A stretch of DNA of 27,170 bases, from the IMG/VR virus record IMGVR_UViG_3300027721_000065, positions 1-27,170 of that record, one strand, 5' to 3'. The position numbers and the translations under genes were made by a program. This document shows, piece after piece, positions 12,907 through 18,997 of the stretch. Below the pieces are notes generated by a model. The model was not told where the DNA came from and did not search any database. It was given only the letters and a program-made list of their open reading frames with translations. Numbering within the stretch: position 1 is the stretch's first letter; the number at the start of each line of letters is the position of its first letter. This stretch comes from a virus.

Positions 12907-15054
12907 TTATTCGTATGAAAGTTCCATGACCTTTAATAATTCCACTTTGGTCGATTCGCCGCTCAACGGGTTAAAATCGATGATTCGGTTCAATCGCCAC
13001 AACGCGCCGTCGATGTATATCAAGCGGGCGAAATCCAATCCGTAAATGTCCATCTCGTTCAACCTGAAAAACGCGGACATCAACTTTGAGTCCTTGTCCG
13101 TGATTTCCGCGACATAATCAAACCAAAATCCGGTGAACAAATTAGCCGACGGATACTGATTCGTCAGGTTGAAATAAATTTCCTCCGGTGTACCGAAATT
13201 AATGTCCGATTGTGGCGTATCCGGATCGTCGAGGTGTCCGGCGTATCCGTATGTCGTGAGCGATTGCTTCACCGTTCCGCCGTCCTTAACGTCGTATGAT
13301 GTTACCCCGGTTTTTTTCTTGATCTGGAGGATCCGGATATTATGCTCCGTTTTGTCCTCCGTCGTGCCGGATAATTTCCACACCGTCGAAACCTTTTTAT
13401 CCTCCCCGGTATAGCCAACCAATGCGGACGCCGAGAATATCAGTTCCGCCGTTTGTTTTTCCTTTGCGAACTCATATCCGGAATCCTCGAGGTAATCCCC
13501 GTATCCCTGACCGAATTTCTTCAAATATTGTTCGTTGTAATAATCCGCGTCGGGCTTGTACTTGTACTCGAAATATCGACCATTGAGTTCCGACATTGGT
13601 TTCAGGCGGATCGGCTTGGATCGATCAAGACGGTACGTCCAATCGCGCGATGTCGTCGATCCGTCCTCCAACAATAGGGCGTTTGTTTGATCGACCATGA
13701 AAATCGTCGTGAAATCATCCGTCGCCAATACCGTGAGCGCATCTTCGTAGTAATCCCGATACGGTTGGATAATGAGATGCTTTTCTCGCGAGGTCGATTC
13801 CGTCACGTATAGGTTGAACATTTTCACGACCGACGAAAAGAAATCGCGTTGAAACACGCCGCGCGGTATCGTGTCATTGATCGCGATTTCATCGCCGTAT
13901 CCCAATGTTACATAGGTCGGTGTCGCGGATATCAGCGTCAGCGTACCCTCCGTTATTTGAATGCCCAACCCCCGAATGTCGGTGTCGATGTAAACGGATA
14001 ATGTGTCGTTCTGGTTAAATGTCACCCCACCGATCGAGGCATTCACCGACACAACGTCGTTTAGGTTGGCCGAGTTGATATGCGTATAAATCGACGTTCC
14101 GTTTTTCCGGATCTCGATTTCGAGTGACGTCCCGGCCTCCAGAACCTCCCCCATCAATACGACATCGAGCGTTCCGGTAAACGGCGTGGCGGAGTTGTAC
14201 GTGAATATGGTATCCGGCGCGTTCAATGTGAAATCTCCGAGCGACCCCGGTTCCCATGAAATGTTGCCGACGTTGGTGTAGGTTTCAGCATCCGCCACGA
14301 CCGATAACCCCGTCGAGGTGAACCGCTTCAATACCTTTTGATTGTTCGGCACGACAAGGCGGTGGAATAGTTGCGTATCGAAGAAATCCGATTCGTAGGT
14401 GTACCCGGATCCGGCGATGATCTTCCGGAGGTACTCTTTAACGTACAATGCCGGACGATATGCCCGGAAATCCCAATCCTTTTTATTGGTGGATACCCCG
14501 CCGTAGTCGACGAGCGGGTAAAAATACCCCGACGCCGGATAATACCCGGTCAGGGTCACGCCCGAAACGGAAATCCCGGTCGTCGGCTCCCATGACCCGG
14601 TTATGTTCGCCATCGTCCATTCGTGATCGTATGCCGAGAAATCGAGATCCTCGATCTTGCCGTTTCCGAGTGCATTAATGAACCCGCCCAATTCGCCGAA
14701 TATGGCGCATTCGTACTCGATCTCCCCGCCATCGCGGACGATTTCGAGTAGCCGAATCACCCCCTTCATGATCTGGATCTTGTCAACGTACACGTAACAA
14801 GTCGCCGCCTTCGATGCGTTGAAATTATACCCCCGGTTGGCGGTATTTTCGTCGTATGCGTTTTGCGATCCGAACTCGAAAACGAAACCGAACAACTTGT
14901 TATTATTCGCCGTGCCGGGGAGTACGACCGTTTTTGAAAAGTTCGTTTCACGTGATGCGAACTCCTTAATGTCGTCGATTTGATATGTAAACTCGACGGA
15001 TAGATCCTCCGTAAGATCCAACCGACGGCCTTCGATGTAAATTTCCGTCCTCAT
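12907..15054 (-). CDS. Large tail / baseplate protein
   Basis: A 715-aa product; ATG 15054 overlaps the previous TGA. It starts IYIEGRRLDLTEDLSVEFTY and has NFSKTVVLPGT (38-48), then NNNKLFGFVFEFG; this N-terminal signature recurs in large structural proteins beside the tape measure gene of Bacteroidota phages. Downstream are many strands, YPLVDYGG, RPALYVKEYLRKIIAGSGY and later a FEYKYKPDADYYNEQYLKKF region. No hydrolase or lytic motif is evident. Position upstream of the tape measure gene and size fit a tail-tip, distal-tail or baseplate-hub part. The exact part cannot be told from sequence alone. Confidence 0.65.
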   Translation of the reverse strand: MRTEIYIEGRRLDLTEDLSVEFTYQIDDIKEFASRETNFSKTVVLPGTANNNKLFGFVFEFGSQNAYDENTANRGYNFNASKAATCYVYVDKIQIMKGVIRLLEIVRDGGEIEYECAIFGELGGFINALGNGKIEDLDFSAYDHEWTMANITGSWEPTTGISVSGVTLTGYYPASGYFYPLVDYGGVSTNKKDWDFRAYRPALYVKEYLRKIIAGSGYTYESDFFDTQLFHRLVVPNNQKVLKRFTSTGLSVVADAETYTNVGNISWEPGSLGDFTLNAPDTIFTYNSATPFTGTLDVVLMGEVLEAGTSLEIEIRKNGTSIYTHINSANLNDVVSVNASIGGVTFNQNDTLSVYIDTDIRGLGIQITEGTLTLISATPTYVTLGYGDEIAINDTIPRGVFQRDFFSSVVKMFNLYVTESTSREKHLIIQPYRDYYEDALTVLATDDFTTIFMVDQTNALLLEDGSTTSRDWTYRLDRSKPIRLKPMSELNGRYFEYKYKPDADYYNEQYLKKFGQGYGDYLEDSGYEFAKEKQTAELIFSASALVGYTGEDKKVSTVWKLSGTTEDKTEHNIRILQIKKKTGVTSYDVKDGGTVKQSLTTYGYAGHLDDPDTPQSDINFGTPEEIYFNLTNQYPSANLFTGFWFDYVAEITDKDSKLMSAFFRLNEMDIYGLDFARLIYIDGALWRLNRIIDFNPLSGESTKVELLKVMELSYE

Positions 15055-16193
15055 CGATATTGAGAATTTACCGGGCGTGAATAGTTGATATCCAACGTGA
15101 GGTTGAACATTTTATCGACCGTCCGGATACGTTCCGCCCAATTATTCGTGCCGACCGTGACAGGATAATAGTAGCCGGATTTTTCGAGGTACACCTCCGG
15201 CGACATGATCAGATCCCGCAGCCATGTGTGATCGGTTTCGGTGAGGAAATCGGAGGTAAGCCGGAATGTCACCCCTTGCGAAATGACATGATTAACGCGC
15301 CCAGCATACATTTTTTTGAACGAATCATACCGCGCAACCGTATCCGATACCACTTCCCATCCCGGACGTTGGTACGACTCCCGTGTGGCGGTTCGTTCCT
15401 CACGGTTGACGAGCCGGAATGTCATTGTGTCATAGCCGCCCAATGAATTAAGGAAATGGAGCGTTTCGACTTCGTATCGATTACACGCTAACTTGATCGT
15501 GAGGTAATCGCCCGTATTGATGCGGACGCGGTATTGTGTGGCCGTCGACGGGATGACCGTCGATCCGAAATATGTGTTAATCGCGCCCGGGGATACGTCG
15601 AATATTTGCAATGCGTTGGTGAAATTCCCCGTGCCGGATTGCTCGGATCCGCCATCGACGGTTACTTTCAACGCTTGCGATACGTCCGGGAATCCGTAGT
15701 TGAACCACGACGCGAAAAGTTTTTCGGTGTACCCGCAAGTCAATGCGGATCGATCGCGACCCGTGAGCCATTTCCCGATGAAAGTATCCAGATATGATGT
15801 CGACCAATCCCGGAAAATCGGGTTGTAGAAATTGAACGCCTCGTAATTCGCGGTCGTAAGGTTTGTGTAAAGGGTGCCGCCGTATTCCTCGCCGAACTTT
15901 ATCGTGTACGCCACGAATATCCCATCCGTGGAGTGGCTAAACGCCGTTTGCGTTGTGTTGGGTTTGAAATACGTCGTCCAATAATTCCGGATAATGTTCC
16001 CGGCGTTGAACGTTCCGCAATCCTCATTCGGATCCGGAAATAATTTTATACGAGCAACAAGCGTCGTGGAAATGTAAACGTCGAAAACATACTTGAATCC
16101 GGTTTGTCCGGTATTGTTGGATGTCACAACGTGCCATAAGTCGTCGTGCATGGATGCCCGGTTTTCCGGTGATTGCACAATAGTAATTGCCAT
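15051..16193 (-). CDS. Tail-associated structural protein
   Basis: A 380-aa product with ATG 16193; TGA overlaps the next ATG. It opens with ITIVQSPENRASMHDDLWHV then VVTSNNTGQTGFKYVFDVYI, an arrangement I recognise from tail proteins of Bacteroidota phages ('p.~~~~yndlwyvv.S.nt...~f~y~fdvy'). Later segments include CGTFNAGNIIRNYW, FGEEYGGT, LHFLNSLGGYDTMTF and LTSDFLTETDHTWLRDLIMSPEVYLEKSG split by turns. The LNSLGGYD.~~F and WL..L..SP~Vyl motifs are typical of this family, which probably forms the distal tail or baseplate with the adjacent 715-aa protein. No enzymatic site visible. Confidence 0.65.
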   Translation of the reverse strand: MAITIVQSPENRASMHDDLWHVVTSNNTGQTGFKYVFDVYISTTLVARIKLFPDPNEDCGTFNAGNIIRNYWTTYFKPNTTQTAFSHSTDGIFVAYTIKFGEEYGGTLYTNLTTANYEAFNFYNPIFRDWSTSYLDTFIGKWLTGRDRSALTCGYTEKLFASWFNYGFPDVSQALKVTVDGGSEQSGTGNFTNALQIFDVSPGAINTYFGSTVIPSTATQYRVRINTGDYLTIKLACNRYEVETLHFLNSLGGYDTMTFRLVNREERTATRESYQRPGWEVVSDTVARYDSFKKMYAGRVNHVISQGVTFRLTSDFLTETDHTWLRDLIMSPEVYLEKSGYYYPVTVGTNNWAERIRTVDKMFNLTLDINYSRPVNSQYR

Positions 16194-16201
16194 GCCATTA
16201 A

Positions 16202-16894
16202 TTAGGCATTTTGAGCCGGATTGAACTTCCGGACGGCGACGCGTACATCAAAGGATGCAGCCTTCGCGACGGCTTGGGCGAATGTTTTTCCGAAATAAGC
16301 GTTAACCGCTTGATCGAAATATCCCGTGTAAGGCAATCCGCGCCGTTTTATGGCGAGGGCAATCGCGTAGGCAAAATCCCCTTGCGGATCTTGTTCGGCG
16401 GCGATATTGCGGCGTTTCTGCTGCAATCGCGACAAGTCCTCGCGTTGATCCTCATTCCTTGCCGCGATACCGTTCACGCGTAACCATCCTTTGATTTCCT
16501 CTACCATAACGGGCGGTGCGGAAAGTTTACGGAATTGGTACGGCGATGATGCGGGTTGGCCGGATCGGATACCACGTACCCCTTTATTGACGAAATCCCA
16601 ATATTTCGCGGCGGGATCATTTTTATCGTATCCGATTTCGAGCGTGTAGGTTGACCCGGATTGAACCAGATCTCCGGCGGATACCCCGTCAGTCAATCCT
16701 CCCGTGGATACCTTGCCGAGCCGATCGAGGTTTTCTTGAACGGCGATAACAAACTCCCCGGCTAATTTTATGATGAGATCCGAAACGGCATTATTCGTCG
16801 GAGCGGATCCGGGATCGACGGGATCATCCGCGAGCGTGTCGAGGTATCCGCTCGTTAATAGTTCGTCTTGGACTTGTTTCAGGGATTTCGCCAT
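16202..16894 (-). CDS. Tail completion / tail structural protein
   Basis: A 230-aa product, ATG 16894, two bases after the preceding stop. Helical N-terminus (SLKQVQDELLTSGYLDTL), then ISDLIIKLAGEF-like helix, strand STYTLEIGYDKND, AKYWDFVNKGVRGI, and helical C-terminus AIALAIKRRGLPYTGYFDQAV. The 'y..fvn.GvrG...........f.......~~~~i..wi......~~~~~~ai...I.~~Gi..t.~~~~~~' order is like HK97-gp10/neck-type tail completion proteins in which a C-terminal helix holds the I..rGl..t motif. It lies between the chaperone and the large tail proteins, supporting a tail role. Confidence 0.55.
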   Translation of the reverse strand: MAKSLKQVQDELLTSGYLDTLADDPVDPGSAPTNNAVSDLIIKLAGEFVIAVQENLDRLGKVSTGGLTDGVSAGDLVQSGSTYTLEIGYDKNDPAAKYWDFVNKGVRGIRSGQPASSPYQFRKLSAPPVMVEEIKGWLRVNGIAARNEDQREDLSRLQQKRRNIAAEQDPQGDFAYAIALAIKRRGLPYTGYFDQAVNAYFGKTFAQAVAKAASFDVRVAVRKFNPAQNA

Positions 16895-16895
16895 G

Positions 16896-17162
16896 TCATT
16901 TCAGCGCGGCTTTTTCAAACTCCGCCTTCGCTTTTAAGTAGGCAACGGCGTTCAAATATTCCAATGTCGGAACTTCCCAAGCGTCGCTCAAAGGTATTCG
17001 GAGATATTCCGCGACGCGCTCGGTCGTATAATGCCATCCATAACGTGACATAAATCGTTCACGAACGCTTCCGCCTCCGCGACCGGGAGGTTCTGCCGTT
17101 TCATCAGTTCCCTCACCAAATAAACCCGGGAATTGTTTATCAACGTCAGATATACGTCGCAA
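16896..17162 (-). CDS. -1 frame extension of the tail assembly chaperone (T-like part)
   Basis: This frame has no upstream ATG near its start. Its first codon after the T9 run is TTG at 17162, exactly where a -1 shift from the 220-aa gene would enter. The fused product would be about 251 aa: residues 1-163 of the chaperone plus 88 residues. The 88 residues begin with a polar, Gly/Pro-rich linker (GEGTDETAEPPGRGGGS) and end with a compact helical part (SRYGWHYTTERVAEYLRIPL and YLNAVAYLKAKAEFEKAALK). The latter resembles the small domain found after chaperones in Bacteroidota phages. Alternatively, translation could start at ATG 17051 to give a separate 51-aa protein; the context favours the fusion. 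Confidence 0.6.
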   Translation of the reverse strand: MRRISDVDKQFPGLFGEGTDETAEPPGRGGGSVRERFMSRYGWHYTTERVAEYLRIPLSDAWEVPTLEYLNAVAYLKAKAEFEKAALK

Positions 17163-17650
17163 AAAAAAAGAACGGATCCGAGTACGGCGGGAATCGGAGC
17201 ATGGAGCATATCTTCGGCATATTCTGAATGACGGGATGCGTCGTACTTATCGTCGATCCACCCGAGTAACCAATGCCGCTTTTGAGGTATGACCATACAC
17301 GCGGCGACCTTATGGAGTTCTTTGTGAACGTCTTGGCCGAATACCTTGGATTCGATATACCGTGCGGCGGGCATCATCGTCACATCGTAGACGCATCGAT
17401 ACCGCTTTCCGCGTACCTCTATGATGCGTTGCGCTTGCGGTTGTACGGCGGTATGTACGAATGCGATCTGCTTTCCGACCTCAACGATTTCAGCGGTGGA
17501 TAATGAGTCAAGTTCATGCTCCGTGCGATCCATGATGATTGCCGCCGGACGAACGACATTATCGAGCCATGAGTTGCCGCGCTCGCCGAAGATGCTTTGG
17601 ATTTGCTGCCATTGCCCGACGTTGCAATCGTTCCACGTGTAACATTTCAT
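16988..17650 (-). CDS. Putative tail assembly chaperone (G-like product)
   Basis: A 220-aa product; ATG 17650 overlaps the previous TGA. It starts KCYTWNDCNVGQWQQIQSIF, typical of Bacteroidota phage proteins ('~~~~dit~~qyq~i~~i') that precede tail genes. Helical segments follow: HELDSLSTAEIVEVGKQIAF, KVAACMVIPQKR, PIPAVLGSVLFFCDVYLTLI. The zero-frame end, after the T9 run at codons 161-164, is a good helical sequence (SRVYLVRELMKRQNLPVAEA). I call it a chaperone from the frameshift signal, the helical nature and the position upstream of the tail and tape measure genes. It would bind the tape measure protein during tail assembly. No direct motif proves this. Confidence 0.6.
   Translation of the reverse strand: MKCYTWNDCNVGQWQQIQSIFGERGNSWLDNVVRPAAIIMDRTEHELDSLSTAEIVEVGKQIAFVHTAVQPQAQRIIEVRGKRYRCVYDVTMMPAARYIESKVFGQDVHKELHKVAACMVIPQKRHWLLGWIDDKYDASRHSEYAEDMLHAPIPAVLGSVLFFCDVYLTLINNSRVYLVRELMKRQNLPVAEAEAFVNDLCHVMDGIIRPSASRNISEYL
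17160..17170 (-). other. Slippery run (C-T9-G) for a probable programmed -1 frameshift
   Basis: Nine consecutive Ts on the coding strand, read as CTT TTT TTT TGC in the 220-aa frame (codons 161-164). Both P- and A-site Phe tRNAs can re-pair after slipping back one base. The two frames overlap for 175 bp downstream, and both remain open. Tail assembly chaperones of siphoviruses commonly use such a site (G/GT system of lambda). Confidence 0.6.
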
Positions 17651-17823
17651 TGCTCCGGATTTGTTTTTACGATTGTAGTTAGCGCATCTTGAATCGCTTG
17701 GCTTTGCAAGAGTTTTTCGAGTTGCCTCGCTTGTTCAATGTATTGCTGCGTGACCCAATTCATTTTAATATTTTGCCCGTACGACAATTTACGAACAAGC
17801 CATTCAACCGCGCTTAATTCCAT
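17647..17823 (-). CDS. Small protein of the TAVEWL type, function unknown
   Basis: A 58-aa product from ATG 17823, ten bases past the large terminase stop; the longer open frame upstream lies inside the terminase gene and is rejected. Sequence MELSAVEWLVRKLSYGQ then QYIEQARQLEKLLQSQAIQD: a WL-containing first helix and a second helix with Q-A-x-x-(L/M)-E. Very small proteins with this pattern are frequent in Bacteroidota phages, mostly of unknown role. A second copy of the same layout is at 25858-26085. TGA overlaps the chaperone ATG. Confidence 0.6.
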   Translation of the reverse strand: MELSAVEWLVRKLSYGQNIKMNWVTQQYIEQARQLEKLLQSQAIQDALTTIVKTNPEQ

Positions 17824-17833
17824 AGTTGTGAAT

Positions 17834-18997
17834 TTACACAAAAGTATATTTCCCCGTCGTCCGTGACCGTTGGAATTTATGCCATGCCAAACCCAACCCC
17901 ATAACGCAATCATCCGTGAACCCCGTGGGCGCGGCATAGCGTACCCCGTGCGCGGTGTATTGATATTCAAATACCTCGAGTTCCCGGGTGATTTGGCCCT
18001 CCGGGAATGATATGATCCGTTGTTGTATCGCCGTTACCAACCCGTCCATGAGTTGTTGTTTGCTCTGCGACGAAAACTTGTACCCCTCCACCGGACGACC
18101 GTCACGGGCGAGATCCTCGAATATTGGATCGCCGACACCCGTGGAATCGATCAACGTCGGAACGCGTGGGAGTGCGGAAATCGCTTGTTTTGTCTGCCTC
18201 CAATCCCGCTGAAATCGTTCATAATGACACACCCCGCCATTCGCATCGATTCCGATGATCACCGTCCAATCGACGGACTTCGCGAGATCCACCCCGAAAC
18301 AAACGGGTGGTGCGGTGCTGATCGGATAGATACATTGACGGATGTAGGTTCCGCCAAAGGGATTCGCTGCATTGTCCATTGGATCGGCGAGGTACTCTTG
18401 CCGGAATACGTCCGCCGGGAGTTGATCCCGTGCCGCGTCGATTTCCATCCCGGAGATGTGCGGGTTATCGTAGGATGAATATTTGAACGACTGCCAGTCC
18501 GGATCGGATCCGTCGCCCTTCATGAAAAGGGAGTAAAAATAGTTTTTACCTCTGGGCGTGGAAAGGAATAACGCGTTCCCGGCGTAGTCCGTCAATGTCG
18601 GACGAATCGAGTTTTGCCAACCTTCTTCGAGGTTCGGGATGAAAGACGCCTCGTCGATGATCGCAGTATGGAACGATTGACCCCGGAGGCGATCGAGTTT
18701 TTCCCCGGTGAAAAATCGGATTTGCCCTCCGTTGAACTCGATCAACTTGTCCGACCCGTTCCGGTATATCGTCGGCGGTAATTCCTTCGCGAGTGCGTCA
18801 AAGAACACCCCGGCGAGTAAATAAGTCGGCGTGATATACGCCACTTTTTTACCCTCCCCGCATTTCATGAGCGCGATGATTTGCGCGATCAATGATTTCC
18901 CGAATCGCCGCCCGCACATGAGCACACGAAACCTTGCCGACGAATCGAGGACGGTTTGTTGCGCCGGGTGCGGTATGTTAGCAATCTGGATTTTCAC
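17834..18997 (-). CDS. terL: Terminase large subunit
   Basis: A 387-aa product from GTG 18997, three bases after the DUF3310 stop. It has all the hallmarks: Walker A CGRRFGKS (28-35), Walker B IIDEAS (113-118), coupling motif STPRG (146-150), and RNase H-like nuclease acidic residues in GVDLAKSVDWT (D237), LIDSTGVGD (D284) and DDC (D362/D363). It is the motor that pumps DNA into the prohead through the portal and cuts concatemers. Length is somewhat short for the family but complete in both domains. A 58-aa protein and the tail genes follow, whereas the portal gene is 12 kb away. Confidence 0.95.
   Translation of the reverse strand: MKIQIANIPHPAQQTVLDSSARFRVLMCGRRFGKSLIAQIIALMKCGEGKKVAYITPTYLLAGVFFDALAKELPPTIYRNGSDKLIEFNGGQIRFFTGEKLDRLRGQSFHTAIIDEASFIPNLEEGWQNSIRPTLTDYAGNALFLSTPRGKNYFYSLFMKGDGSDPDWQSFKYSSYDNPHISGMEIDAARDQLPADVFRQEYLADPMDNAANPFGGTYIRQCIYPISTAPPVCFGVDLAKSVDWTVIIGIDANGGVCHYERFQRDWRQTKQAISALPRVPTLIDSTGVGDPIFEDLARDGRPVEGYKFSSQSKQQLMDGLVTAIQQRIISFPEGQITRELEVFEYQYTAHGVRYAAPTGFTDDCVMGLGLAWHKFQRSRTTGKYTFV

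Follow-up and report, generated by a model that had tools for sequence, protein, structure and literature searches.

The frameshift that joins the two reading frames of tail chaperone genes is among the most conserved recoding events in phages and has been taken to be ribosomal. Lambda-type tail chaperones use ribosomes for the change of frame, the lambda slip site being of the GGGAAAG kind, and conservation of this frameshift among siphophage chaperones was reportedly described by Xu et al. in 2004. RNA polymerase is the agent in other cases: in Shigella mxiE two overlapping frames are brought together by a U added within a U run, and a longer protein results (PMC1088944), a process like the one proposed here, and the tape measure protein of an Acinetobacter prophage, the product of a different gene, is apparently made by transcriptional slippage (PMC6095929). 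Among open-licence papers on tail assembly and transcriptional slippage we found no tail chaperone made by polymerase slippage, and in those on slippage or frameshifts in tail genes, on Bacteroidetes/Flavobacterium phages and on phages P12024S/L the site analysed here was not described. The site is genuine: it serves a tail chaperone-like pair, which forms a new family, as a -1 recoding site under strong selection. In a large family of phages from aquatic habitats, a -1 slip on a run of nine Ts (T9) appears to yield a second, longer form of a tail-building helper protein. Our main reading, of moderate confidence, is that the pair is a G/G-T chaperone pair and that RNA polymerase is the most likely agent of the slip.

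The stretch of DNA analysed (the window) is a 27,170-base IMG/VR record, in which the minus strand is the coding strand for the chaperone-pair genes and the tail module (Table 1). A preliminary description had placed a probable programmed -1 frameshift in this region; the locus was described correctly and we add the strand. In the order of transcription, the terminase large subunit is followed by a 107-aa ORF, the G-like gene, its -1 extension and the 230-, 380- and 715-aa proteins, and then by the tape measure gene, the head maturation protease, the capsid-like protein and the portal. The pair forms part of the tail module and precedes the tape measure gene on the same strand, with three genes (230, 380 and 715 aa) between them, as had been noted; this is a less usual spacing for a chaperone pair. 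Two further features of the window are unusual. The order of genes from 18997 to 3535 (minus strand) puts terminase, pair, tail genes and tape measure gene ahead of protease, capsid-like protein and portal, and the portal carries a C-terminal extension with a winged-helix HTH-like segment (residues ~507-548; PF13412 match with E 8.7e-5, just above its cut-off), which is unusual for a portal.

Table 1. Features of the chaperone-like pair and its neighbourhood in the window
Feature	Position	Strand	Evidence or remark
Terminase large subunit, neighbour 5' of the pair	17834..18997	-	phrog_2, E 1.9e-39; Terminase_6N
107-aa ORF between terminase and G-like gene, function unknown	17647..17970	-	ORF list
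0-frame G-like gene, 220 aa	16988..17650	-	codons CTT TTT TTT TGC over the run
T9 slip run	17161..17169	-	T1 = 17169, T9 = 17161; phase C TT TTT TTT T GC
U_UUU_UUU heptamer (T2-T8), in phase for ribosomal -1 re-pairing	17162..17168	-	sequence; heptamer rule in PMC4066793
-1 frame T-like extension	16896..17162	-	88 codons from TTG at 17162, plus stop (16896-16898)
Dual-coding overlap of the 0-frame C-terminus (57 aa) and the -1 frame	16988..17161	-	codon-position differences
230-aa protein, first gene 3' of the pair, weakly HK97-gp10-like tail component	16202..16894	-	PF04883, E 0.092, below cut-off
380-aa tail-module protein	15051..16193	-	no family match
715-aa protein	12907..15054	-	weakly related to proteins of Elizabethkingia phage TCUEAP1 and Nonlabens phage P12024L
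Tape measure protein, 702 aa	10797..12905	-	phrog_1538, E 2.3e-4
Head maturation protease	10778-9723	-	3' of the tape measure gene
Capsid-like protein	7521-6568	-	3' of the protease
Portal	5526-3535	-	3' of the capsid-like protein

The plus strand at 17161-17169 reads c-AAAAAAAAA-g, nine As that give T9 on the coding strand with flanks C and G, and the sequence bears out the nine Ts and their phase as given in the preliminary description. The run encodes L161, F162 and F163 of the G-like protein, and residues 1-163 are common to both products. From the run to its stop the -1 frame extends for the 88 codons claimed, and the predicted length of the fusion (163 + 88 = 251 aa) matches the product of about 251 aa that had been expected. 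The earlier view of this frame as beginning at the run has to be amended, since it is also open for 28 codons 5' of it (to about 17246) and the run is therefore not the edge of the open frame. Its start indeed has no ATG, the first lying not before residue 38, and the overlap of the frames after the run is 175 bp, as claimed. T9 is the only A/T homopolymer of at least eight in the window, against a background in which 182 of the 254 Phe codons in the window's main genes are TTC. On the sequence evidence, T9 is a selected -1 recoding site at which a helical protein of about 163 residues is predicted to be joined to an 88-residue tail.

Normal decoding would yield the 220-aa G-like protein, and a -1 frame change at T9 would yield a rarer 251-aa fusion ending in a separate helical T-like domain, which may connect the tape measure and tail tube proteins. 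In the mechanism that we propose, RNA polymerase on the nine-T run would give some transcripts one additional U (U10), and ordinary translation of the U10 transcript would then read on into the T domain. An identical protein would come from -1 slippage of ribosomes on U_UUU_UUU, which may contribute.

Comparison with homologues, recommended in the preliminary description, found the T run and both frames kept across relatives. Direct searches with each frame recovered six close relatives that keep both frames, and T9 is present in seven out of seven sequences including the window. Profile searches extended this to a set of 45 loci and to two sets based on the -1 domain (362 relatives, 80 kept; 480 relatives, 80 kept), which have an exact in-phase T9 in 79/80 and 80/80 kept loci, respectively. 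A further set was built with the upstream protein alone as profile and was thus blind to the second frame; among its 566 relatives, all 80 kept loci contain the exact in-phase T9 and all have the second frame open (five run off the contig end). T9 occurs in 41 members of the 45-locus set, the others being two loci cut off ahead of the site and two without T9. These four were dropped: L054 and L056 begin past the site, L057 lacks a T run and is apparently chimeric, and L062 is a weak match without T9. Three loci of this set (L019, L022 and L023) come from the same contigs as L002, L006 and L004 and were left out as well, and contigs recur between searches, such that locus counts are not counts of independent phages. 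The T9 loci comprise 189 distinct sequences, with 68 representatives below 90% identity. A pattern scan of the whole collection, using seven Ts, 0-4 bases of any kind and a fixed flank (7 to 11 positions), returned 89 matches in 88 stretches; 80 matches belong to the family, all with T9, and nine are unrelated. Two contigs, 3300002835_000289 (49,966 bp; L154/L163) and 3300043436_001856 (63,203 bp; L184/L216), have two G-like genes each, with the copies ~31-33 kb apart, and may be concatenated or chimeric genomes.

The only other run length among the 80 loci kept from the 362 relatives is T5, in contig IMGVR_UViG_3300045125_000006 (L140), whose 0 frame is also broken nearby and which is probably an indel-prone assembly; it lies outside the sets used below for isolate sites, run census, codon counts and tree, all of which consist by construction of T9 sites only. 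Apart from this contig, the outcomes that the preliminary description had named as telling against a frameshift (a run of 8 or 10 Ts, or a distant start belonging to the second frame) were sought and are absent. A homopolymer sequencing error, a decayed gene or a tract that is phase-variable through replication slippage could be read into L140 and into L389, a locus where the site is locally repeated, but we consider such an origin extremely improbable: the length is constant in independent assemblies and cultured phages, when a phase-variable tract should vary, and selection acts on both frames. The constancy of T9 in independent contigs and cultured phages led us to reject sequencing error, a pseudogene and phase variation alike.

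Cultured representatives were reached through the G-like protein of one relative, which found the Nonlabens (Persicivirga) phages P12024S and P12024L with E values of 0.03-0.06. The gene after the terminase in these phages has an exact T9, read as CTT TTT TTT TAT, at the aligned place, and no stop interrupts the -1 frame before a tail-like end. The G profile matches P12024S with a probability of 94.9% (E 4.5e-8) in an alignment that runs through the FF of the run, and the G fold matches I6R9M9 from the P12024S/L side (E 9.9e-9). The P12024S/L pair differs from that of the window in a shorter G-like protein (175 aa) and a shorter overlap, and the P12024S T extension is not significantly similar to the T profile (E 0.035, probability 1.5%). 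GenBank names the P12024S/L pair as two separate, unrelated hypothetical proteins. In P12024S (JQ823122.1; L148:5923-6617), P12024S_39 (AFM54700.1, 55 aa) corresponds to the 3' portion of a longer -1 frame, which is entered by way of the T9 in P12024S_38; the record mis-annotates the pair, and P12024L (L150) has the same T9. Because of the homology to P12024S/L, and because the 715-aa neighbour has relatives in P12024L and an Elizabethkingia phage, our analysis suggests that the phage lineage infects Bacteroidota. A host search with the T profile on genome contigs for prophages gave 30 pattern-matching stretches and no confirmed relatives.

Flavobacterium phage 6H presents a different arrangement. 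Its fold match R9VW65 (E 1.8e-3), taken by length to be N375_gp10 (191 aa), lies upstream of a T-like open frame in a stretch without annotated genes (L311:10048-10927, minus strand). There is a stop in the -1 frame between N375_gp10 and the T-like frame, and no T9; 6H was left out of the counts. The T-like frame of 6H may have a different mode of expression or may not be homologous.

Selection on the run was quantified by counting parsimony changes on a tree of 102 representatives (total length 20.2). No wobble change was detected at either of the Phe codons of the run, compared with 8-29 changes for every one of 22 conserved two-fold codons further upstream in the gene. Phe at the site is encoded by TTT 136 times and never by TTC, while upstream in the same genes of 68 representatives the counts are 190 TTT and 126 TTC. 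In a census of 251 ORFs (196 kb) from 37 representatives, T9 occurs 37 times, which equals the number of representatives, and other long runs are depleted relative to the numbers expected after synonymous shuffling: no run of eight Ts (5.4 expected), seven runs of seven Ts (28.3 expected), two A9 runs (9.3 expected) and no run of A10 or longer (6.1 expected).

The second frame is also under selection. Pairwise differences at 0-frame codon positions 1/2/3 are 0.25/0.18/0.57 upstream of the run. In the first 44-base block of the overlap they change to 0.22/0.39/0.39, as is typical of sequence that codes in two frames. The corresponding differences at -1 frame codon positions 1/2/3 of the conserved T domain are 0.30/0.15/0.55. 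The -1 frame extends for at least 75 codons past the run in 67 of the 68 representatives, the exception being L389 with its locally repeated site. A programmed -1 frame change, as claimed in the preliminary description, is strongly supported by the conservation of T9 and of the second frame in relatives. The T domain could instead be a small gene of its own whose start lies within the overlap, perhaps the ATG of the FMxRYGW motif; this Met is present in nearly all members, and P12024S is annotated with an ATG-started gene of 55 aa. We regard this as very unlikely: a conserved slip site leads into the second frame, the internal ATG lies 3' of conserved -1 residues, and the codons ahead of it show both conservation of the -1 frame and dual coding. 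Moreover, P12024S has no Met at the equivalent place of the alignment, and a separate gene leaves the invariance of T9 without a reason.

Whether polymerase or ribosome makes the slip depends on properties of the run that go beyond its presence. Slippage by RNA polymerase, which was absent from the preliminary description, fits the invariant T9 at least as well as does a ribosomal site. Bacterial RNA polymerase slippage needs at least seven Ts and occurs on T runs more than on A runs (PMC6260861), and in many bacteria selection against A/T runs on account of polymerase slippage is usually seen at a length of nine (PMC1088944). T9 is an uninterrupted run of that length, and selection beyond the heptamer is evident in the invariant wobble of T8, the eighth T of the run, and in the lack of other lengths in the G-based and pattern sets. 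We favour the polymerase, firstly, because T8 is never C even though a C would be silent in both frames (Phe TTT/TTC; Leu TTR/CTR) and would turn the heptamer into U_UUU_UUC; secondly, because nine A/T is a slippage-prone length and these phages deplete long runs elsewhere; and thirdly, because no conserved downstream RNA structure was found. The last of these rests on 37 representatives and 60-nt windows starting 0-20 nt past the run, in a search over pseudoknot-free folds, where the mean z ranged from -0.44 to 0.02 and was no lower than in other parts of the genes; ribosomal sites often, though not necessarily, have such a structure. The region 5' of the run was inspected by eye for a Shine-Dalgarno-like stimulator; the G-rich stretch there follows Gly codons.

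The same chaperone pair may alternatively be produced by a purely ribosomal change of frame, through tandem tRNA-Phe -1 slippage on U_UUU_UUU as in lambda-type systems, an account we find possible but rather less than probable. An X_XXY_YYZ heptamer (U_UUU_UUU) is in the right phase at every T9 site read, U_UU.U_UU.U gives measurable shifting in E. coli in the absence of stimulators (PMC4066793), and tail chaperones are the classic ribosomal case (PMC5009743). On its own, however, this account leaves unexplained that none of 102 representatives has a C at the wobble position T8 and that run lengths of 7, 8, 10 and 11 are absent, and no conserved downstream structure was found in the 37 representatives. 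With respect to T8, U_UU.C tetramers shift at least as well as U_UU.U in E. coli, and H_HH.U_UU.Y heptamers are among the most efficient on E. coli ribosomes with stimulators (PMC4066793).

Several points temper the case for the polymerase. A preference of the host's ribosomes for U_UUU_UUU over U_UUU_UUC might account for T8; replication errors can be another cause of long-run depletion; and the amino acids [V/L/I] and [Y/C], not run length, could be the constraint on T1 and T9. Furthermore, the perfect in-phase ribosomal heptamer inside the run speaks against a slip made by polymerase only, as does the reliance of lambda-type chaperones on ribosomes. The chances seem to us evenly balanced that an aquatic phage lineage, probably infecting Bacteroidota, sets its chaperone ratio by polymerase slippage on T9 and not by ribosomal frameshifting.

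Structure prediction for the G-like protein (pLDDT 85.1, pTM 0.81, 29 sequences) places the run inside a long predicted helix (153-186). The model of the -1 extension (pLDDT 72.7) comprises a short helix, a low-confidence linker and a compact C-terminal helical domain with the motif FMxRYGW ... YLNAVAYLKAKAEFEK, in keeping with the compact domain after a flexible linker that had been described from the sequence. Searches of PHROGs, Pfam and PDB sequences with the window proteins of the pair gave nothing significant, and no chaperone family model in PHROGs or Pfam passes the cut-off for the pair. Among 29 G-like members of the family, 15 have a match to phrog_32199 (best E 6e-7), whose function is unknown and which the P12024S G-like protein matches along its full 175-residue length. 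Phage_TAC_7 of Pfam, which covers tail assembly chaperone proteins E, 41 or 14, is matched weakly by six of the 29 members with a best E of 0.047, which is not significant, and not by the window protein itself. Fold searches of the PDB gave a best E of 1.1 for G with Foldseek, also not significant, and best Z scores of 3.3 (G) and 4.0 (T) with VIA-align, none of which was called a relative, although absence from these lists excludes nothing. In a viral fold library 34 entries match the G model with an E value of at most 0.001, all of them lacking a named function, and one named chaperone appears at E 0.99. The BFVD entry A0A6J7WJY4 (243 aa) resembles the G model (E 1.5e-7) as well as the T model (E 0.012); its length is close to that of an in-frame fusion and it could be a natural or assembly-made G-T fusion.

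The name of tail assembly chaperone, given to the pair in the preliminary description, is consistent with its architecture and neighbourhood and goes further than the library matches, none of which passes its cut-off. We infer the chaperone identity from architecture and position, sequence homology being sub-threshold, and a role as chaperones, like the polymerase step and the ratio of the two products, is inferred likewise. The family is not named as a chaperone in the PHROGs and Pfam models scanned and is mis-annotated in the cultured phages P12024S/L, and T9 together with a second frame offers a simple annotation signature for a chaperone pair that is missing in many uncultivated phages. 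If the polymerase reading is true, it would represent a new way to make a known protein pair. An invariant T9 site with the properties expected of a polymerase slippage site permits a clean test of whether ribosome or RNA polymerase sets the chaperone ratio.

Compared with the best-known systems, the pair shares with lambda gpG/gpG-T two products made from one start by a -1 frame change, the location of both frames in the tail module ahead of the tape measure gene and a short helical extension on a common N-terminal part. It differs from gpG/gpG-T, to which it has no recognisable sequence homology, in its invariant T9, its long dual-coding overlap and the three genes that precede the tape measure gene. 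Finally, Shigella mxiE is a regulator gene, whereas the genes of the pair are phage assembly genes with an in-phase ribosomal heptamer inside the run.
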